From: Oceanivirga miroungae
GTDB taxonomy: Bacteria; Fusobacteriota; Fusobacteriia; Fusobacteriales; Leptotrichiaceae
Assembly: GCF_902505095.1 (NCBI RefSeq)
Contig: NZ_CABWIB010000001.1
Span: 820,688-884,687 of the forward strand
DNA length: 64,000 bases
Reading direction: 5' to 3'
Shown here: positions 28,927 through 39,949 of the stretch, in pieces
Layout of the letters: every line of letters begins with the position of its first letter
Position numbering within the stretch: the stretch's first letter is position 1
Notes under the pieces: generated by a model
Told to the model about the DNA's origin: nothing
The model's input: only the letters and a program-made list of their open reading frames with translations
Database searches by the model: none
Made by a program: the position numbers and the translations under genes

Positions 28927-28955
28927 ATTCTATCATTTTGATAAGCTTAATACAA
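28927..28955 (-). promoter_or_regulatory. Promoter of the proS-murE operon
   Basis: Minus strand TTGTAT, 17 bases, TAGAAT. It lies back to back with the promoter of the large surface-protein gene. Confidence 0.5.
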
Positions 28956-28973
28956 GGTTTTATAAATATATAT

Positions 28974-29001
28974 TTGACTTTTCTCATTTTCAAGTTAAAA
29001 T
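28974..29001 (+). promoter_or_regulatory. Promoter of the large surface-protein gene
   Basis: TTGACT, 16 bases, TAAAAT, giving a leader of about 95 bases before the TTG start at 29103. Confidence 0.6.
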
Positions 29002-29020
29002 ACATATTGAGAACGGTTAC

Positions 29021-29095
29021 AAAAGAGGAAATAAATAAATACAGACCTCTTTTTTGCTTAAAATTTAAAAATGAAAACGATTTCAAAAAAGGAGG
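29021..29095 (+). promoter_or_regulatory. Leader with competing hairpins: terminator-like versus SD-masking
   Basis: AAAAGAGG (29021-29028) can pair with CCTCTTTT (29046-29053), which is followed by more T: an intrinsic-terminator shape with a 17-base loop. The same segment CCTCTTTTTTG (29046-29056) is also complementary, with one bulge, to CAAAAAAGGAGG (29084-29095), which holds the Shine-Dalgarno. The two pairings exclude each other. A regulatory switch is inferred, not shown. Confidence 0.4.
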
Positions 29096-29102
29096 AGTAA
29101 AT

Positions 29103-32100
29103 TTGAATATACGAAAACTAATTATACCTATGTCATTTGTAAGCTTAATTTCATTTGCTGATAGAGTAGACATTGGTACTAATCCAAATTCTGTTTTTAT
29201 TGAAAAAACAGGTAATACTATAGATGTTACAGGTAGTGGTGAAATAAATAAAGAGAAGTTTAGAAATTTTATGAAAAGACACCTTAGTAAAAATGAAACT
29301 ACATTAAATTTAAAAAGCCCAGATCTTAGATTTCCAAATGATTCTAGTCGATTTTTTTACGAATATATTGGTCAAATAGAAATTGATAGGGAAATTGATA
29401 CCTCTAATGTTACTAATATGGAGTCAATGTTTGAGCATACTATAAATGCAAACCCAGATGTTTCTAATTGGAATACTTCTAATGTTACTAATATGAAAAA
29501 CTTATTTAATTATGCTCGTAATTCCAATCCTGATGTAACTAACTGGGATACTTCTAATGTTACTGATATGAGCTACTTATTCTATTATGCTGAAGAAGCG
29601 ACTCCTAATGTATCTAATTGGAATACTTCTAGTGTTACTACTATGAAAGAAATGTTTACAAATGCTGTAAAAGCTGATCCTAATGTAACAAACTGGGATA
29701 CTTCTAATGTTACTGACATGTCTGGAATGTTCTGGGCTGCAAGAGCTTCTAATCCTAATGTTTCTAAGTGGGATACTTCTAATGTTACTAATATGAGTAA
29801 GATGTTTTATGGTGCAAGTATTGCTAATCCTGATGTTTCTAATTGGGATACTTCTAATGTCATTAATATGAGTGGAATGTTTAGTACATATAACGCTAAT
29901 CCTGATGTTTCTAAATGGGATACTTCTAAAGTTAAAACTATGGACTGGATGTTCTATAATAACTATGTAGCTAATCCTGATGTTTCTAAATGGGATACTT
30001 CTAGTGTTGTTGATATGGACCATATGTTCTCTAGTACTAAAAAGGCAAATCCTGATGTTTCTAATTGGAATACTTCTAATGTTACTAATATGGCCGCTAT
30101 GTTCTCATCAACTGATGTTGCTAATCCTGATATCTCTAAGTGGGATACTTCTAAAGTACGTGATATTTCGTTTATGTTTAATGGTTCAAATTCAGCATAC
30201 CCTGACATAACTGAGCTAAATTTTGATAGTATTAAAAATTCTAATTCCATGTTCAGTAACTCTGCGTTTGAGAAAGAAATACAAAAAACAAAACCATATA
30301 TATCTAAAGATGACCTTAATGCCTCACATATGAATGAATTAAAAGCTTTACAAAAAAAGCTAAAAAATGAAGCTCCTGAATACACTAAGGTTATTATTCA
30401 CTATAAGGAAAAAGATAATAAAAATAGAAAAGTTCATGTGTGGGATAATAATTATCACGATAACAATGAAAACTTCTCATCAAGTGGTACTGATGATTAT
30501 GGTAAGATTTTTGAAGTTGTGCTAAAAGGTAATATTACTAAAATGGGCTATATATTTGCTAATACAGATAATTGGTATGATAAAGATTGTTTAGGAGATA
30601 GTAGTTGTAATGCAGATAGAATAATAGACACGACTAAAACTAAAGAAATTTGGGTAGAACAAAATAATAGAGACAGAGATGTAACGAAAGAAACTGATGC
30701 AAAACAAAGTAAGGAAGAAAATATACAAAAAATCAATGACTTAACTAACCTAAATGAGAAACAAAAAGAATATTTACTTAATTTAGCTAATAATTCTAGT
30801 GATAGTGAATTAAAAGAGTTAGTAAAAACTGCTACTTATTTAGATACTGAAATGAGTAAGTTTAATAATGCTAACGAAACATTTTCAAATAAAACAAGTG
30901 AATCAACAGATGATAAAATTATTAGACTTAAAGAATATATCAAGATGCAAAAAATAAAAAATCTAAAATTAAATGATGTATCAGATTTAATAAACAAAAT
31001 AAAATCTATGGATATTAGACTTCTACAAAATTTAAATAAAAAACAAAAAGATGCGTTAGTAAATAAAGCTAATTCTTCTGATAATTTAGATGATTTATTA
31101 AATAAAGCTAAAAAATTAGATGAAGAAATGCTTAAATTAAATAATACTATAGATGCATTTTTAGAAGAAATAAAAAATATACAAAATGATAAGGCTGAAA
31201 TATTTAAAAATAATATTAATACTGACAAAGAAAGTAATTTAGATATTGATAAAATATCAGACTTAATAAATGAAATAAATGCTTTTAAGTCTAATATTTT
31301 AAAGATTGAAGAAATTAAAAAGTTAGAAAATCTAAACGATTCACAAAGAAATGCTTTAATTAGTGAAGCTGATACTTCTGATGACTTAGATGCCTTACTA
31401 GAAAAAGCTAGTACTTTAGATGAACAAATGAAAGTATTAAAAGATTTTTTAGTTAATACAGAAAATTCAACTGCTGCAGATGTAAGCAAACTTAGAACTG
31501 AAATTAATAGTGTAAAAGAAACTAATTTATCTATTGAAAAAGTAAATGACCTAATAAAGAAAATAAATGAGTTAAATAATTCTAAAAATGATACTATTAC
31601 CAAAATACAAAACTTAGCAAACTTAAATGCCTTACAAAAAGAAAAACTAATTGAGGTAGTTAATTCTTCTAATGATACTTTTGATATCATATTAGAAAAA
31701 GCTACTGCTTTAGATACTAAAATGGGTGAATTAAGACAAAAATTAAAAGATTTAGAAAATATCTCTAATGAAAAAATTACCGAGTTTATAGCTTCTACTA
31801 CTAAGGAAATAGAAAAAATTACTGTTGAAAATGCTAGAACTTCCATAACTAAATTAAAAAATGATATTACTACATTTGAAACTAAAGTACTTAAGATTGA
31901 AGAAATTAAAAAGTTAGAAAATCTAAACGATTCACAAAGAAATGCTTTAATTAGTGAAGCTGATACTTCTAATGACTTAGATGCCTTACTAGAAAAAGCT
32001 AGTACTTTAGATGAACAAATGAAAGTATTAAAAGATTTTTTAGTTAATACAGAAAATTCAACTGCTGCAGATGTAAGCAAACTTAGAACTGAAATTAATA

Positions 32101-33551
32101 GTGTAAAAGAAACTAATTTATCTATTGAAAAAGTAAATGACCTAATAAAGAAAATAAATGAGTTAAATAATTCTAAAAATGATACTATTACCAAAATACA
32201 AAACTTAGCAAACTTAAATGCCTTACAAAAAGAAAAACTAATTGAGGTAGTTAATTCTTCTAATGATACTTTTGATATCATATTAGAAAAAGCTACTGCT
32301 TTAGATACTAAAATGGGTGAATTAAGACAAAAATTAAAAGATTTAGAAAATATCTCTAATGAAAAAATTACCGAGTTTATAGCTTCAATAGAAAAAATTA
32401 CAGTTGAAAATGCTAAAACTTCTATAGACACATTAACACAAGAAATTACTGACTTTAAAACTAAAGTTCTTAAGATTCAAAAAATTAGAAAGTTAGAAAA
32501 TCTAAACGAATCACAAAGAAATGCTTTAATTAGTGAAGCTGATACTTCTAATGACTTAGATGCCTTACTAGAAAAAGCTAGTACTTTAGATGCACAAATG
32601 AAAGTATTAAATGACAAATTAAATGACTTCTTAGAAAAAGCAGAAAATCTAGGTGATGAAAATGCTAAAAAAATTGGTAATAATATTAAAGCTAAAATAG
32701 TTAAAGAAAATTTAACCATTGATGATATAAATAATCTAAAAAATGAGATTAATAAATTCAAGTTTGAAAACAAGAAAATAGATCTTACTAAGTACAAAAA
32801 ATACGCTGATGCATTTTACTATACAGATAATAGTATAACTAATAAATTCGATGAAAACTTATACTTTGATGTTAATTTATCTAAATCTTTAGTTACTGTG
32901 CTAGATGATTTGGTAAATAAGAAAAAAGTTGATATTAATATTATATCTGGAGTTCAATTAGGTGCTAATTTTAAAGTAAAAAATGATTTAGATTTAAAAT
33001 TAGGTGGATTTATAGAATATCAAAATGGTTTATCACGTAATATCTCAATTGGTACTAGTATAACATATAAAGAGTTTTTAAGCTTTTTAAGATATAGACG
33101 TGCAAGCAAAGATAAATTAGTAAATGATAATATAGATATTTATGCAAGATACTCTAAATCATTTAAATTTAATAATATTAATCTGCAACCCAAATTTGGT
33201 CTATATTTAACTTATTCAAGTAAGGTTAAATTAGATAAAAATGTACTGCTAAATTCAAGAATTGGATCTATAGCTGATTTTGCACTTCTAATGTCATATG
33301 ATATAAATAGATATAGCATATATTTAGAACCTAAATTAGCATTTTCTCAAAATACTCAAAAAATAGTACAAACTAACTATAAATCTAATGAACTTTTAAT
33401 TAATAGAGCCTATCTAAATTATAGTTTAAGACTAGGAGCTAAATATAGATTTATAAATAATATAACTCTTGATGGAAGCTTTAATTTTAGTAATGATATT
33501 AATAAGAATAGTAAGATTGGTGCAAATTTAGGAGTTTCATATAAATGGTAA
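29103..33551 (+). CDS. Large BspA-repeat / GA-module surface protein with autotransporter-like barrel
   Basis: 1482 residues from the TTG at 29103: GGAGG lies just upstream and a signal peptide (NIRKLIIPMSFVSLISFA) follows at once; the frame is open further up, but that part precedes the promoter. Domains: about 11 DUF285/BspA repeats of about 25 residues (residues 99-389, pattern NPDVSNWDTSNVTNM); a pullulanase-associated carbohydrate-binding domain (about 425-521, KVIIHYKEKDNKN, KVHVWDN); seven GA-like three-helix modules (about 543-1173, LENLNDSQRNAL, LDEQM); and a C-terminal barrel (about 1230-1482, alternating strands ending GVSYKW). It should be exported and fixed in the outer membrane. 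GA modules bind albumin in Gram-positive cocci; an adhesin role is inferred. Within the GA part a 591-base unit is duplicated. Confidence 0.9.
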   Translation: MNIRKLIIPMSFVSLISFADRVDIGTNPNSVFIEKTGNTIDVTGSGEINKEKFRNFMKRHLSKNETTLNLKSPDLRFPNDSSRFFYEYIGQIEIDREIDTSNVTNMESMFEHTINANPDVSNWNTSNVTNMKNLFNYARNSNPDVTNWDTSNVTDMSYLFYYAEEATPNVSNWNTSSVTTMKEMFTNAVKADPNVTNWDTSNVTDMSGMFWAARASNPNVSKWDTSNVTNMSKMFYGASIANPDVSNWDTSNVINMSGMFSTYNANPDVSKWDTSKVKTMDWMFYNNYVANPDVSKWDTSSVVDMDHMFSSTKKANPDVSNWNTSNVTNMAAMFSSTDVANPDISKWDTSKVRDISFMFNGSNSAYPDITELNFDSIKNSNSMFSNSAFEKEIQKTKPYISKDDLNASHMNELKALQKKLKNEAPEYTKVIIHYKEKDNKNRKVHVWDNNYHDNNENFSSSGTDDYGKIFEVVLKGNITKMGYIFANTDNWYDKDCLGDSSCNADRIIDTTKTKEIWVEQNNRDRDVTKETDAKQSKEENIQKINDLTNLNEKQKEYLLNLANNSSDSELKELVKTATYLDTEMSKFNNANETFSNKTSESTDDKIIRLKEYIKMQKIKNLKLNDVSDLINKIKSMDIRLLQNLNKKQKDALVNKANSSDNLDDLLNKAKKLDEEMLKLNNTIDAFLEEIKNIQNDKAEIFKNNINTDKESNLDIDKISDLINEINAFKSNILKIEEIKKLENLNDSQRNALISEADTSDDLDALLEKASTLDEQMKVLKDFLVNTENSTAADVSKLRTEINSVKETNLSIEKVNDLIKKINELNNSKNDTITKIQNLANLNALQKEKLIEVVNSSNDTFDIILEKATALDTKMGELRQKLKDLENISNEKITEFIASTTKEIEKITVENARTSITKLKNDITTFETKVLKIEEIKKLENLNDSQRNALISEADTSNDLDALLEKASTLDEQMKVLKDFLVNTENSTAADVSKLRTEINSVKETNLSIEKVNDLIKKINELNNSKNDTITKIQNLANLNALQKEKLIEVVNSSNDTFDIILEKATALDTKMGELRQKLKDLENISNEKITEFIASIEKITVENAKTSIDTLTQEITDFKTKVLKIQKIRKLENLNESQRNALISEADTSNDLDALLEKASTLDAQMKVLNDKLNDFLEKAENLGDENAKKIGNNIKAKIVKENLTIDDINNLKNEINKFKFENKKIDLTKYKKYADAFYYTDNSITNKFDENLYFDVNLSKSLVTVLDDLVNKKKVDINIISGVQLGANFKVKNDLDLKLGGFIEYQNGLSRNISIGTSITYKEFLSFLRYRRASKDKLVNDNIDIYARYSKSFKFNNINLQPKFGLYLTYSSKVKLDKNVLLNSRIGSIADFALLMSYDINRYSIYLEPKLAFSQNTQKIVQTNYKSNELLINRAYLNYSLRLGAKYRFINNITLDGSFNFSNDINKNSKIGANLGVSYKW
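31302..32603 (+). repeat. 591-base tandem duplication inside the surface-protein gene
   Basis: 31302-31892 and the segment from 31893 are almost identical for about 490 bases (one visible Asp/Asn change). The second unit lacks 12 bases present in the first (near 31796). A third partial copy begins at 32472 and covers one GA-like module. The reading frame is kept throughout, so module number can change by recombination. Confidence 0.9.
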
Positions 33552-33584: not shown

Positions 33585-36500
33585 TTAAAATAGACTTTGT
33601 TGGTCTGTTTCATCCATCCCTTTTATTATTTCGTATTCCTCCATAGTTTTTAAAACTGTACTATTAAGTCCTGTTCTTTTAACTAAATCTTCTTTTGAGC
33701 TAAAGCTTTTTTCTTTTCTTTTTTCTTCTATATTTTTTGCTACTACTTCTCCTAGTCCATCAACAACTAAAAATGGTAATCTTATTTTTCCATCTTCTAT
33801 TATGAATTTATCTGCTTTTGACTTATATAAATCAACATTTATAAGTTCTATATTTCTATAGTGCATTTCTATTAAAATTTCTAATAAAATAACTTCATTT
33901 TTATCATTTACATTTTTACTATTTAAATCTCTTAATTCATAATAACGTTTTTTAAGTTTATCTATACTAGCAAAATTTTTACTTAAAGTAAATGAAGAAA
34001 TTTTTCTGTTTAAGTAAGCTGTATAAAATTCTAATGGATAGTAGACTTTAAAGTAAGCTATTCTTATTGCCATCATAACATATGCTACAGCATGTCCTTT
34101 AGGGAACATATATTTAATTTTCTCACACGAGTCAATATACCAACTAGGAACTTTATATTCTTGCATAACTTTTTTATATTCTTCCCATTTTTCTTTATCT
34201 TTATTTGGTCTTCCTTTTCTAATGAATTCCATAATAGTAAAGCTTAATCCCTTATCTATACCTTGTAATATTAGATAGTTCATAATGTCATCTCTTACTG
34301 TTATTATTTCATTTAAGCTAGCAATTCCCTCATTAACATAATACTGAGCATTATTTAACCAAACATCTGTACCATGTGATAATCCTGATATTCTAACTAG
34401 TTCTGTAAATGATGTTGGTCTTGTATCTTTTAACATTCCTTTAACAAATGCTGTACCAAATTCTGGTATACCATTTGTCCCTAAATCTGTTTCAATATCT
34501 TCTGGCTTTACATTTAAAGCACTTGTATTTGAAAATAGACTTATAACCTTTTCATCAGTTAATGGTATATCATATGGACTAAGTCCTGTTAAATCTTCTA
34601 ATAGTTTTAATGTAGTTGGATCATCATGTCCTAGTATATCAAGTTTTACAAGCTGTGCATCCATTACGTGATAATCAAAGTGTGTAGTAGTACTTTGACT
34701 TGTCATATCATTTGCTGGTTTTTGAATAGGACTAAATTCATATATAGACTTATCTCTTGGTACTATTACCATACCTCCAGGATGTTGTCCTGTAGTTTTT
34801 CTTGCACCTTCTATCATTCTAGCAAGTCTTTCAATTTCTGCCTTATTTTTTCTTATATCTTCTTGAATATACTCTTTTTCAAACTCTTTATTTACTTTGT
34901 CTTTACCAAATATTTTTTCACTTTCTTCACGAGCTTTTGCTTGTGAATTTATTTCAAAATATTTTTTAACATAACCCATTGCATTATTATATGCAGTAGT
35001 TGATATGGTTCCTGCTCTAAATGTATTTTCTGCACCGAATAATTCTTCAGTGTACTTATGAATATTAGATTGAAATTCTCCAGAAAAATTCAAGTCTATA
35101 TCCGGTACTTTATCTCCGTTAAATCCCATAAAGACTTCAAATGGTATTGCATGTCCATCACGAATTAGCTCTATATTACATTTTTCACAGTATTTTACTG
35201 GAAGGTCTACTCCACTTTTTTCTAACTCAAATATTTCAAAATATTTACATTTAGAACATCTATAATGTGGATATAGCCCATTAACTTCCGTTATACCCAT
35301 TAAATATGCAACCAAGCTACTACCAACAGATCCTCTTGACCCTACTAAATAACCACTTTCTACTGATTTTTTAACTAACTTTTGGGCTATTAGATATAGA
35401 ACTGAGAAGTTGTTTCCTATAATTGAATTTAACTCTCTTTCTATTCTATCTTGAACTACCTTAGGTAAATTCTCTCCATATAGCTCATGTGCTTTTTCAT
35501 ATGTTAGTCTTTTAACTTCTTCTTTATCTCCATCTATTTTAGGTGGATAAAATCCATCAGGTATTGGTCTTACCTTTTCTATCATATCTGCTACAATATT
35601 GGTATTTTCAACAACTACTTCATAGGCTATTTTTTCTCCTAAATATGAAAACTCCTCTAACATTTCTTTTGTTGTTCTAAAATGCGAATTAGATTCATAC
35701 TTAGATTCTCTAAATTCATTATTAGCTACCTGTAATACTTTTTTAGCAGGTGCTTCTTCTTTTGTCATGTAAGAAACATCTGATATAGCTACCACAATTT
35801 TCCCTAATTTTTTACCTAGATTATAGAAATATTTATTCATTTCTCTTACATATTCAAAATCTGTTATCTCACCTGTTTTAACTTCTTTTTCATATTTTGA
35901 TTCTGGATAAATTTCTATTAGATCATAAAAATTAGCAGCTTTTTCTATTTCTTCTTTATCTATCCCTCTTATATATAGTTTTACTAGCTCTCCACTTTTG
36001 TTGTAACCCATTGAAGGATTTGAAGCTATTAAAAGCTCTTCTCTATTTTTTTCTAAATCACTTTTTTTAATTCTTGGTAACTTATTCCCATAGTTATATA
36101 TTAATGAATCACTTACAAGTTTATATAAGGTAGGTAGACCTTTTTGACTTTTAAGCAGTATATTAGTTACATTTACCTCTGCAACTTCAATATCTAATTG
36201 TAATTTTTCATTAACATCTTTTAAAGTTTTAACATTTTCAGTTAGTACTCTTTTTATTAACTCTATAAATAGTTTTGTAGTAACTTCTGCGTCATTTACT
36301 GCTCTATGGTGATTTTCATTGTCTATATTAAATCTTTTACATAAAGCATCTAAATTAAATCTTTTTTGATCTTTTAAAGTTAATTTAGCCCATTCTATTG
36401 TATCAATATAGCTAAAATTAGTAGATATATTTAATTGATTTGATTTTTCACTAATAAATCCAACGTCAAATTTGGCATTATGAGCTACTAATGTAGAGTT

Positions 36501-37856
36501 TTTACAAAATTCTAAGAATCTAGGTAGTACAATATCTACTGTATCAGCATCTTTAACATCATCATCACTAATACTAGTTAAATCTTTAATAACTTTAGGT
36601 ATGGGTATTTCGGGATTTATAAACTCTGAAAATCTATCTACAATTTCTAATTTCTTTATTTTTACAGCTCCAATTTCTATTATTTTATCATTATATGGAT
36701 CAAATCCTGTTGTTTCAATATCGAATACTACATATTCTTCTTCTAAAATATCCACATCTTTAGGGTTTATAACTAGCATTTTATTATCATCTACTACATA
36801 AGAGCTAAGTCCCAATATTGCTTTTACATCAGAGTCTTTTTTATATACAAAAGGAAATGCATGTACTACTCCTAAGTCAGTTATTGCATATGCACTATGC
36901 CCCATTTTAGACATTATTTCATTTAAATCTTTTGCATTTATATTTGAACTCATTTCGCTCATATTAGTTCTAATGCCTAGTTCTACTCTTTTAACATCGC
37001 TATCGTCTATTATACTATGATCTACACTTGCTATTTTTTTAATAAACTTAATTTTTATATAGTAATCTTTTTCAAAACTAATATCTTTTGTAAATGTTCC
37101 TGTAATTTCTACTACATCATTTACCTTTAGTTCATGGTCATTATCATCATTGTAGAATTTTTTACAAACAAATGATCTTTTATTATTAGTTACATAAAAA
37201 GAAACTAGTTTTAATTTTCCACCATCTTTTTTTGTGATTTCCTTTTCATCAATATAGAAAATCTCTGCTTCTATTGTAATAGTTTTCCCTAATTCAAAGT
37301 CAACTATTAAAGGTTTTATAGTAAAATTACTGTCTTGTTTTTTAGATTTTTCTTTAGTCTTTTCCAAAACATTAAAATTTAATTCATTTAAAGAAATTTC
37401 TAATGCTATATCTTGTTTTAATGATTTTATAAGCTCTTTTTTTAATTCATGGTCTAATTTATTATGAGTAATAAAAGTTTTTTGAATTTCATCACTTATT
37501 TTTATATATACAATATTATCATTAGCTAATATTTCTAAGTCTTTTGTAAAAGCAGGATTATTATATGTATAATTTACGTAGTCCCATAAGTATTTTGCCA
37601 CTTCTTGTAAATTTTCATTTTCAAATCTAAAATGGTATTCTATTCTGTACTTTTTTACATCCTTTGATATCTTATTTCTAATATTAGTATCTAATTTAGT
37701 AAAACTTTCAAAATCATTATTATCTAAAACGTTTATATAGCAGGTAATTGTTATTGTATTGTTAGAAATTATTTCTAATTCTTTTAACTCTATACTATTT
37801 ATACCAAAAGCTAAATCTAAATCTAGTTTTGGTTTTAGTTTTATTATTTCTTTCAT
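33585..37856 (-). CDS. polC: DNA polymerase III alpha subunit, PolC type
   Basis: 1423 residues, the usual PolC length. Order: N-terminal domain, OB fold (about 190-290), PHP domain start (about 300-340), the inserted 3'-5' exonuclease (about 372-545) with YVVFDIETTGFDPYND, VAHNAKFDVGF and HRAVNDAEVT, then the rest of PHP and the polymerase core with the zinc cysteines CSKCKYFEIF and CEKCN, and VPDIDLNFSG holding catalytic aspartates. The C-terminus QQSLF is a sliding-clamp-binding motif. It is the main replicative polymerase with built-in proofreading. PolC is typical of Firmicutes and Fusobacteria, which supports the taxonomic call. It starts at the last base of the upstream kinase gene. 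Confidence 0.97.
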   Translation of the reverse strand: MKEIIKLKPKLDLDLAFGINSIELKELEIISNNTITITCYINVLDNNDFESFTKLDTNIRNKISKDVKKYRIEYHFRFENENLQEVAKYLWDYVNYTYNNPAFTKDLEILANDNIVYIKISDEIQKTFITHNKLDHELKKELIKSLKQDIALEISLNELNFNVLEKTKEKSKKQDSNFTIKPLIVDFELGKTITIEAEIFYIDEKEITKKDGGKLKLVSFYVTNNKRSFVCKKFYNDDNDHELKVNDVVEITGTFTKDISFEKDYYIKIKFIKKIASVDHSIIDDSDVKRVELGIRTNMSEMSSNINAKDLNEIMSKMGHSAYAITDLGVVHAFPFVYKKDSDVKAILGLSSYVVDDNKMLVINPKDVDILEEEYVVFDIETTGFDPYNDKIIEIGAVKIKKLEIVDRFSEFINPEIPIPKVIKDLTSISDDDVKDADTVDIVLPRFLEFCKNSTLVAHNAKFDVGFISEKSNQLNISTNFSYIDTIEWAKLTLKDQKRFNLDALCKRFNIDNENHHRAVNDAEVTTKLFIELIKRVLTENVKTLKDVNEKLQLDIEVAEVNVTNILLKSQKGLPTLYKLVSDSLIYNYGNKLPRIKKSDLEKNREELLIASNPSMGYNKSGELVKLYIRGIDKEEIEKAANFYDLIEIYPESKYEKEVKTGEITDFEYVREMNKYFYNLGKKLGKIVVAISDVSYMTKEEAPAKKVLQVANNEFRESKYESNSHFRTTKEMLEEFSYLGEKIAYEVVVENTNIVADMIEKVRPIPDGFYPPKIDGDKEEVKRLTYEKAHELYGENLPKVVQDRIERELNSIIGNNFSVLYLIAQKLVKKSVESGYLVGSRGSVGSSLVAYLMGITEVNGLYPHYRCSKCKYFEIFELEKSGVDLPVKYCEKCNIELIRDGHAIPFEVFMGFNGDKVPDIDLNFSGEFQSNIHKYTEELFGAENTFRAGTISTTAYNNAMGYVKKYFEINSQAKAREESEKIFGKDKVNKEFEKEYIQEDIRKNKAEIERLARMIEGARKTTGQHPGGMVIVPRDKSIYEFSPIQKPANDMTSQSTTTHFDYHVMDAQLVKLDILGHDDPTTLKLLEDLTGLSPYDIPLTDEKVISLFSNTSALNVKPEDIETDLGTNGIPEFGTAFVKGMLKDTRPTSFTELVRISGLSHGTDVWLNNAQYYVNEGIASLNEIITVRDDIMNYLILQGIDKGLSFTIMEFIRKGRPNKDKEKWEEYKKVMQEYKVPSWYIDSCEKIKYMFPKGHAVAYVMMAIRIAYFKVYYPLEFYTAYLNRKISSFTLSKNFASIDKLKKRYYELRDLNSKNVNDKNEVILLEILIEMHYRNIELINVDLYKSKADKFIIEDGKIRLPFLVVDGLGEVVAKNIEEKRKEKSFSSKEDLVKRTGLNSTVLKTMEEYEIIKGMDETDQQSLF

Positions 37857-38467
37857 TATTTTAATCCTAGTTTTCTATCTATTATATCAAATATGTATTC
37901 CCTATCTTCTAAATTATTAACAAAATCTATGTCATCAACATTTATTTTTAAAAAGTCTGATAAATTATAGTTATCAAAATATTCTCTATAATTTTTATCG
38001 AGATTAGTCCAATATTCAATTGGAACTATTTGTTCGTATTCTCTTGCTCTTTTTTTGATTTTTTTCACTGCATTTTCTACGCTTGTTTCTAGATATATCA
38101 TAAGTGCTGGTTTTTTTACATTTTCTAACATGTTATATAGAAGCTCTTCGTATAACTCGAATTCTTCTTTTGTCATATCACCATCGTCTGCTAACATTTT
38201 AGAAAAAATCACATCTCCGTATATACTTCTGTCCATAACACAAGCCCCTAAATTTTCAGCTTCTTTTATCATTTTAAATCTTTTATTTAAGAAAAATATT
38301 TGTAAAGGAAAACTCCATCTTTTTTTGTTATAGTAAAATTTATCTAATATTGGATTATCTAAAACAGGTTCTTCATATAACTTTATATTGTATCTTTCTG
38401 CAATTAGCCTCCCTAATGAACTTTTACCTACTCCTACTACTCCATCAACACAAATTGTTCCCTTCAT
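37856..38467 (-). CDS. Deoxynucleoside kinase (dGK/dAK family)
   Basis: 203 residues from the ATG at 38467, preceded by AAGGAGG; an in-frame ATG at 38521 with AAGGAGA would add 18 residues (MQSYYKDFFKKAKIKEEV). Both starts have good ribosome sites; the shorter form matches the family. Motifs: P-loop VDGVVGVGKSS, EEPVLDNPIL, the DRSIYGDVIF signature and the arginine-rich lid KKIKKRAREYE. It phosphorylates salvaged deoxynucleosides (dG/dA type by resemblance). It immediately precedes polC, so dNTP supply and replication are co-expressed. Confidence 0.88.
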   Translation of the reverse strand: MKGTICVDGVVGVGKSSLGRLIAERYNIKLYEEPVLDNPILDKFYYNKKRWSFPLQIFFLNKRFKMIKEAENLGACVMDRSIYGDVIFSKMLADDGDMTKEEFELYEELLYNMLENVKKPALMIYLETSVENAVKKIKKRAREYEQIVPIEYWTNLDKNYREYFDNYNLSDFLKINVDDIDFVNNLEDREYIFDIIDRKLGLK

Positions 38468-38573
38468 TACTTCCTCCTTAATCTTTGCTTTTTTAAAAAA
38501 GTCTTTATAATAGCTCTGCATTTTTATCTCCTTATGTTCTTAACTAAATATATTTTAACATTATTCTTAAGAT

Positions 38574-38607
38574 AAAAAAAGGAAAAAACTATAAAAATTT
38601 TCCCTTT
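38574..38607 (-). terminator. Terminator behind the PurA-like gene
   Basis: GGAAAA / TTTTCC hairpin (38581-38603) with a T7 run on the minus strand. Confidence 0.6.
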
Positions 38608-38622
38608 CAATATTCTATTTAA

Positions 38623-39888
38623 TTATCTATCAATATAACTATTTTCGTTCTCTGCCACTGCAATTTTATCAAATTTTATACCTAAATAACCTTCAATATA
38701 TTCTACATATCTTTTACAATTTTTTGGTAATTTTTCATATTCTTTTATATTTGAAATATCTTCTTGCCAACCATCAAATTCTTTGTATAACACACTAAAC
38801 TCATTTAAGTTAGATACATTTAAAGGAAATGTTTGATAAACTATTTTATCTATTTCATATGCTACACCTAATTTAATTTTATCCAAACCACTTAGTACAT
38901 CTAGTTTTGTAAGGTAAAGCTTATTTACTCCATTTAATAATAGACTATATTTTAAAATACCTAAATCAAGCCATGCACATCTTAATGAGCTTTTATTATC
39001 TTCTCCTTTTGATATTAAATGTTCTTTTATGTCATAGAACACTTCTGTTGGTAAAAATCCCTCATCTTTTCTAGTTGTATAGGCTTTTAATACTCCTATT
39101 TTATTTTCTATTTTATTTGTACTAACACCTACATTATAGCAAATACCTGAAATTGTAGCATTTGTAATATTTACATCTGGATATGTTCCATAATTAATGT
39201 CTAGCATTGTAGATGTATTAGTTTTAAATAGTATCTTTTTACCTTCTAATATTCTATTATTTATATCTATCATGGTATCAGTAATATTAAATTTTAAAAT
39301 ATTAGCATACTCTTTATATTTTTCTATAATATACTCAAACTCTATCTCATTTTCTCCTAATTTAGATAATATGGTATTCTTTTCCTTTAATGTATTTCTC
39401 AATTTTAATGAAAAATTCTCCATATTTAGTAAATCACAAAATCTTATCGCATTTTTTTGGATTTTATCTAAATACGCATATGATAATCCTGTCATTACAT
39501 TCTTTATATTATTTTTCCCAAATAATTTTTGTCTAGATTTTTCAATTAAAATATGATAAGACATTATTATATTCGCTCTATAATCAATCCATATCTTAGC
39601 AATTTCTAAATTATGTTTTTCTAAAACACGAATATCTTCTAATAATAAATTTATATCTATAAAAGTGCTAGCAGCAAATATTATATTTAAATTTTTATTT
39701 ATAACCTCAACAGGTAAAACTGAAAGAGAAATTTCTACATCATTTATTTTAACTGTATTTTTTATATTATCACAATTCGCTATAACAATATAGTCACTAT
39801 CATTTGAAAGTTCTTTTAAAATTCTAGTCTTACCTTCTTCTCCAAATTGTAATCCTACAACTACACTTGTATTAAATTTTTTTTCCAT
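38623..39888 (-). CDS. Degenerate adenylosuccinate synthetase (PurA) paralogue
   Basis: 421 residues from the ATG at 39888 (AAAGG upstream); an ATG nine codons earlier is possible. The whole PurA fold can be followed: VVVGLQFGEEGK, GLSYAYLDKIQKNAIRFCDLL, LDINYGTYPDVN, KAYTTRKDEGFLPTE, RCAWLDLGILKYSLLLNG, LTKLDVLSGLDKIK. However, the active site is altered. The normal GDEGKGK loop reads GEEGKTR, and NNAGHT, holding the catalytic histidine, reads NIKNTV. Both the Asp and His needed for catalysis are therefore replaced, while the frame is intact. It is probably not a working synthetase and may have a new binding or regulatory role. It is monocistronic and divergent from eno. Confidence 0.85.
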   Translation of the reverse strand: MEKKFNTSVVVGLQFGEEGKTRILKELSNDSDYIVIANCDNIKNTVKINDVEISLSVLPVEVINKNLNIIFAASTFIDINLLLEDIRVLEKHNLEIAKIWIDYRANIIMSYHILIEKSRQKLFGKNNIKNVMTGLSYAYLDKIQKNAIRFCDLLNMENFSLKLRNTLKEKNTILSKLGENEIEFEYIIEKYKEYANILKFNITDTMIDINNRILEGKKILFKTNTSTMLDINYGTYPDVNITNATISGICYNVGVSTNKIENKIGVLKAYTTRKDEGFLPTEVFYDIKEHLISKGEDNKSSLRCAWLDLGILKYSLLLNGVNKLYLTKLDVLSGLDKIKLGVAYEIDKIVYQTFPLNVSNLNEFSVLYKEFDGWQEDISNIKEYEKLPKNCKRYVEYIEGYLGIKFDKIAVAENENSYIDR

Positions 39889-39921
39889 AATATGCCTTTC
39901 TTTATTTTTACTCACACATCT

Positions 39922-39949
39922 ATTATACTATTATTTTTATTATTTACAA
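39922..39949 (-). promoter_or_regulatory. Promoter of the PurA-like gene
   Basis: Minus strand TTGTAA, 16 bases, TATAAT. Its -35 box overlaps that of the eno promoter. Confidence 0.6.

Follow-up and report, generated by a model that had tools for sequence, protein, structure and literature searches.

PurA (adenylosuccinate synthetase, EC 6.3.4.4) is a near-universal enzyme under strong constraint; in bacteria that depend on salvage it is a drug target. Its active form is a dimer, each site of which is completed by an arginine from the partner (PMC11571797, PMC6136348). In the H. pylori enzyme the IMP phosphate is bound by Arg135* of the partner subunit, Thr230 and Thr121, while O2' is bound by Arg294 (PMC11571797); in E. 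coli PurA, R303 contacts both O2' and the aspartate (PMC8342488). The catalytic Asp13 is 99% conserved among prokaryotic PurA, and a serine takes its place in all phage PurZ (PMC12884076). Residue numbers used below are those of E. coli PurA including Met1, so that Asp14 and His42 correspond to Asp13 and His41 of the mature-enzyme literature.

Two kinds of described systems come closest to the gene reported here, which we term PurA2. The first is PurZ/DgsS, the phage 2-aminoadenylosuccinate synthetase, which like PurA2 is derived from PurA, is devoid of an R303-type contact and has a changed catalytic aspartate; PurZ, however, carries a serine at that position and forms a clade of its own, whereas PurA2 of Oceanivirga miroungae carries a glutamate and sits within the Leptotrichiaceae PurA. 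The second comprises dead regulatory paralogues, namely the trypanosome AdoMetDC prozyme (PMC6221367), a deoxyhypusine synthase paralogue (PMC3663545) and plant PDX1.2 (PMC6829848). Each is a dead duplicate kept alongside an active, oligomeric member of its own family, as is the case here; for these paralogues a regulatory role is reported from experiment, whereas for PurA2 a partner is only proposed. No report of a PurA pseudoenzyme was found in the literature searched.

The window analysed is a 64,000-nucleotide stretch of the O. miroungae genome. PurA2 occupies positions 38623-39888 on its minus strand and encodes 421 amino acids in a frame that is open throughout; the plus strand displays many stops over the same interval. 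The mechanical ORF begins at a GTG at 39915, in frame with the ATG at 39888. The ATG is the likelier start, since it is aligned with the starts of the other PurA2 sequences and a ribosome-binding-like GAAAGG (39895-39900, minus strand) is located 6 bases upstream of it. Further upstream, a promoter-like TTGTAA-16-TATAAT (39922-39949, minus strand) scored 10/12 in a consensus scan, a weak candidate in view of the fact that shuffled sequences matched about equally often. The PF00709 profile (Adenylsucc_synt) spans the whole protein (profile positions 1-415 of 416; 343 bits, E 2.5e-102), and its homology to PurA is therefore not a matter of chance. The original prediction, of a PurA sequence kept over 420 residues in an open frame, was borne out in this respect, although it had not specified the strand.

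AlphaFold2 modelling of the O. miroungae PurA2 from 28 sequences (pLDDT 86, pTM 0.84) replaced an earlier model from 5 sequences with a pLDDT of 71.5. A Foldseek search with the newer model returned PurA structures first, with a TM of 0.92 to E. coli PurA (1ade) and of 0.59-0.63 to PurZ; as the alignment behind the model includes true PurA sequences, it favours the PurA fold. The fold is thus predicted to be intact. Full-length homology, predicted fold and an identity of approximately 41% to the PurA of the same genome all liken PurA2 to PurA. On the other hand, its catalytic aspartate and histidine are replaced, its IMP-phosphate and aspartate sites are changed, and it falls below the cut-offs of both curated purA equivalog models (322 vs 402 for NF002223, 302 vs 395.6 for TIGR00184), both of which are exceeded by the PurA2 of four relatives.

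The replacements were examined in an alignment with 29 Fusobacteriota PurA and that of E. coli, all of which read GDEGKGK in the P-loop. In O. miroungae PurA2 the canonical GDEGKG has become GEEGKT (39826-39843, minus strand), as originally predicted, with catalytic Asp14 changed to Glu and Gly18 to Thr. In the IMP loop, DNIKNT (39754-39771, minus strand) aligns with the canonical NNAGHT, so that catalytic His42 is replaced by Asn; the loss of the histidine had been correctly anticipated, but the motif had been read as NIKNTV, one residue out of register. A lysine, Lys145 (39454-39456, minus strand), stands at the position of R144, which reaches the IMP phosphate from the partner subunit, a role assigned via H. 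pylori Arg135 (PMC11571797). The aspartate/2'-OH loop GATTGRPR is reduced to a shorter NKSSL (38977-39003, minus strand) with four residues deleted and R304 gone, the alignment of the PurA2 loops being uncertain; the roles of R303 and R304 are described in PMC8342488 and PMC11571797. Additional changes are Q225 to T, T240 to N, V274 to K and S415 to A; R306 is also changed or missing, and the GTT motif, including T130, is lost. As regards the nucleotide sensor suggested earlier, which would need a binding site, K17, K332 and D334 of the GTP site were kept, while G18, K19, S415 and G417 were changed. Overall, of the 88 sites at which every other Fusobacteriota PurA and PurA2 in the comparison agreed, 24 were altered. 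Among the residues expected of a PurA, those absent here are the catalytic Asp14 and His42 and the IMP-phosphate and 2'-OH ligands T130, R144, T240 and R304. Without the catalytic Asp and His, and with little of the aspartate loop left, the protein is unlikely to ligate by the PurA mechanism, and we infer from the sequence that O. miroungae PurA2 does not make adenylosuccinate. For the same reason, the earlier suggestion that it may be a new ligase appears unlikely.

The conversion of IMP to AMP does not require PurA2. The O. miroungae genome (1.36 Mb in 3 contigs, assembly 92% complete) contains an intact purA in which every canonical motif is present (G000:C1:777749-778996) in an hpt-purA-purB operon, with hpt upstream and the only purB-type lyase of the genome downstream. 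A search for a second, intact purA and for purB had been proposed as a check, and both were found; their presence elsewhere renders PurA2 redundant for the synthesis of AMP from IMP.

Directly downstream of PurA2 lies a deoxynucleoside kinase gene (dNK; 37856-38521, minus strand; PF01712, 177.7 bits), the nearest solved relatives of which are 8puu and the deoxyguanosine kinases 2jaq/2jas. Its stop is overlapped by a gene for a PolC-type DNA polymerase III alpha subunit with exonuclease, PHP and polymerase domains (33585-37856, minus strand), and the same order is found in the four relatives' loci (L032-L035). Upstream of PurA2 is a divergent enolase gene. The intergenic gap between PurA2 and dNK (38522-38622) measures 101 nt in O. 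miroungae vs 12-38 nt in the relatives. A search of this gap for a terminator yielded only a weak A/T-rich hairpin before a T run, the folding of which was no better than that of many shuffles. On the plus strand, beyond polC, positions 28938-33551 encode a surface-type protein of 1537 aa, in which a PUD domain and GA modules accompany DUF285 repeats (DTSNVTNM) and internal repeats are nearly identical; by eye, its C-terminus resembles an outer-membrane barrel.

PurA2 was found in only five genomes (G000, which is O. miroungae, G001, G004, G007 and G013), out of 33 Leptotrichiaceae and 98 Fusobacteriota genomes. A PurA2 profile separated the five proteins (710-778 bits) from canonical PurA (at most 609). 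The order PurA2, dNK, polC on the same strand is present in all five, and in three of them (G004, G007 and G013) PurA2 is preceded by hpt2-rsmA, a pair that lies apart from dNK in G001, G002 and G014. The dNK and polC genes are not neighbours in Streptobacillus-like and Sebaldella-like genomes. The O. miroungae assembly contains neither the second hpt (hpt2) nor rsmA/ksgA, which are adjacent to each other in the relatives examined (cf. L032 6809-8136); a true deletion and an assembly gap are equally likely. A joint loss of hpt2 and of PurA2 activity was considered as a functional link and set aside, since hpt2 and ksgA are neighbours, both are absent from a 92%-complete assembly, and a gap would explain this equally well.

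In the tree the five PurA2 are monophyletic (100/100) and nested within the Leptotrichiaceae PurA, which indicates an origin by duplication and not from phage. Horizontal acquisition was rejected on the same grounds, PurA2 residing inside the family's own PurA at full support; searches of phages, plasmids and viral contigs revealed nothing closer than approximately 38%. Several changes are common to all five members: Lys stands at R144 and Asn, Val or Ser at T240, the phosphate-binding GTT motif has disappeared (with Ser at T130 in two members), and R304 is missing. The other four nevertheless keep Asp14, His42, Lys17, Lys332 and Asp334, and their GTP site is almost complete, whereas O. miroungae alone has lost Asp14, His42 and Gly18, together with the aspartate loop and Ser415. 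Judged from these alignments, the clade arose before the catalytic residues were lost, and that loss is lineage-specific. The remaining members also display erosion (NNASHT in G001; changes at D22 and Q225 in G004 and G013), so that the clade is eroding rather than fixed, a point against a retained function. The four relatives' PurA2 (L032-L035) pass the curated purA cut-offs despite their changed IMP-phosphate and 2'-OH ligands, and are likely over-annotated as adenylosuccinate synthase. Two further observations were made during the survey. The sole purA match is interrupted by an in-frame TGA in G020 (G020:C161:2505-3770) and split between two frames in G074 (G074:C1:314343-315598), due either to sequencing error or to a broken gene; and three metagenome bins (L046-L048) displayed matches of 27-31% identity in the contig scan, which are probably ordinary purA.

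The O. miroungae copy has diverged much further than its surroundings. Its identity to the G001 protein is 47%, compared with 81.5% for PurA, 82% for dNK and 70% for PolC, and its terminal branch in the tree is 1.43 vs 0.12 for the PurA of the same genome, approximately 12 times faster. One explanation of such divergence is that PurA2 was an accessory gene which ceased to be useful in this lineage and is becoming a pseudogene, its frame remaining open either owing to the recency of the decay or because the expression of dNK-polC would suffer from nonsense mutations. The long branch, the lineage-specific loss of catalytic residues that other PurA2 keep, the widened gap to dNK, the small genome and an assembly lacking hpt2 and ksgA all agree with this explanation.

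A selection analysis among relatives had been proposed as a check and was carried out with PurA and PurA2 sequences. Synonymous sites are saturated; the terminal neutral branch lengths of PurA2 were therefore tied to those of purA in the same genome, and the omega values depend on this assumption. The dead kind is represented by one sequence, the nearest homologue of which is about 49% identical. Under tied lengths omega was 0.028 for PurA, 0.056 for the other PurA2 and approximately 0.16 for O. miroungae PurA2. For the latter omega=1 was rejected (2dlnL 72.6, a fit worse by 36.3 lnL units), and it remained worse by 9.6 lnL units even without tied lengths, where branch lengths are unidentifiable. 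A model of a functional period followed by a neutral tail (lnL -11293.2) was inferior to one of uniformly weaker selection (-11289.0), and its best neutral tail, of 0.58 substitutions per codon, leads to an expectation of about 17 stops, while none was seen. The marks of a pseudogene (stops, frameshifts) were absent over all 421 codons, and all indels were in frame. O. miroungae PurA2 is thus under weakened but real purifying selection on average, and neutrality over the branch is rejected.

The zero stop count limits a neutral tail, at 95%, to at most about 0.105 substitutions per codon. Decay that started within that limit would leave no stop, and the raised omega and the single sequence of this kind leave room for it; a tail of up to this length, however, accounts for the divergence less well, by 12 lnL units. 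The distribution of the changes also argues against it. With a list of active-site residues drawn up in advance, in part from annotation, O. miroungae PurA2 kept 7 of 27 active-site positions vs 60 of 95 others among those invariant in PurA and E. coli (p 0.0009), and 8 of 17 vs 56 of 71 when invariance was required of the other PurA2 as well (p 0.014). The other PurA2 displayed little such contrast (18-20 of 27 vs 65-75 of 95). All 11 invariant sites at positions 351-400 were kept, as were 8 of the 13 PurA2-specific residues. Polarity on dNK-polC, moreover, would guard against stops but not against missense changes. We therefore regard decay as rather unlikely, although it is the strongest of the alternatives. 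Losses concentrated at catalytic positions, with fold positions kept, are better accounted for by a selected non-canonical role. That part of the original prediction stands as far as average purifying selection and the pattern of losses are concerned; it is qualified by the ability of a very recent decay to leave no stop.

A second alternative would make PurA2 an enzyme whose acceptor has changed (e.g. to a deoxynucleotide or to a nucleoside without phosphate) and which works together with dNK, the O. miroungae copy being active by a divergent mechanism. The gene is tied to dNK, all five members have replaced R144, T240, the GTT motif and R304, whose roles lie in acceptor binding (PMC11571797, PMC8342488), and four of the five retain D14, H42, K17, K332 and D334. 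The replacements of T130 by Ser (in two members) and of R144 by Lys are conservative, however, and phosphate binding may persist. In O. miroungae itself neither Asp14 nor His42 remains, most of the aspartate loop is missing and the P-loop is partly lost, so that both activation of the 6-oxygen and attack by aspartate are unlikely, and we give this alternative a small chance. An ordinary adenylosuccinate synthetase isozyme tolerating such changes would agree with the end-to-end PF00709 match and with the conservative nature of D14E; but D14, H42, R144, Q225, T240, R304 and R306 are all changed or missing, the first of these at a position 99% conserved in prokaryotic PurA (PMC12884076), and its scores lie below both equivalog cut-offs while those of the four relatives lie above, so that we consider it very improbable. 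A chromosomal PurZ-type enzyme of the phage Z-DNA pathway is the least probable of all, as the PHROG 1211 annotation, the dNTP-related neighbourhood and the shared absence of the R303 contact (PMC8342488) are outweighed by a score of 50 bits vs a cut-off of 300 in the NCBIfam PurZ model, by the tree, by the fold, and by the serine rule, the Asp13 position being Glu in O. miroungae and Asp in the relatives, which together refute PurZ membership.

Taken together, catalytic residues lost, a predicted fold retained and retention under selection lead us to favour, on balance, the interpretation that O. miroungae PurA2 is a pseudoenzyme with a retained, non-catalytic function. Its history began with a duplication of purA in an ancestor of a small-genome Leptotrichiaceae subclade; in all five holders the copy lies upstream of dNK-polC. 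The acceptor pocket would have been remodelled early, in a step common to all five; the O. miroungae lineage would then have lost the catalytic Asp and His and the aspartate loop, with the fold kept under weakened purifying selection. As each site of the PurA dimer is completed by an arginine of the partner, a dead paralogue could act by hetero-dimerising with PurA, a mode of action reported for dead paralogues of other enzymes (e.g. PMC3663545, PMC6221367). The simplest route would be for PurA2 to pair in this way with the intact PurA, or to bind dNK, by which the flow from IMP to AMP would be tuned against dNTP supply; this partner model is the least certain element of the pseudoenzyme interpretation, and we offer it tentatively. 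A broader proposal, which we hold to be more doubtful still, casts PurA2 as a new regulatory subunit: a PurA without activity of its own, it would associate with active PurA or the neighbouring dNK and link adenine-nucleotide supply to DNA precursors and replication through the dNK-polC operon, the PurA2 of other Leptotrichiaceae being bifunctional or still catalytic forerunners.

For annotation, the finding means that curated NCBIfam models would name the four relatives' proteins "adenylosuccinate synthase" despite their changed IMP site. For the family, it presents within one clade and one conserved neighbourhood a series that extends from catalysis-competent-looking PurA2 to a dead copy, and the gain or retention of a role by a dead paralogue thereby becomes directly testable.
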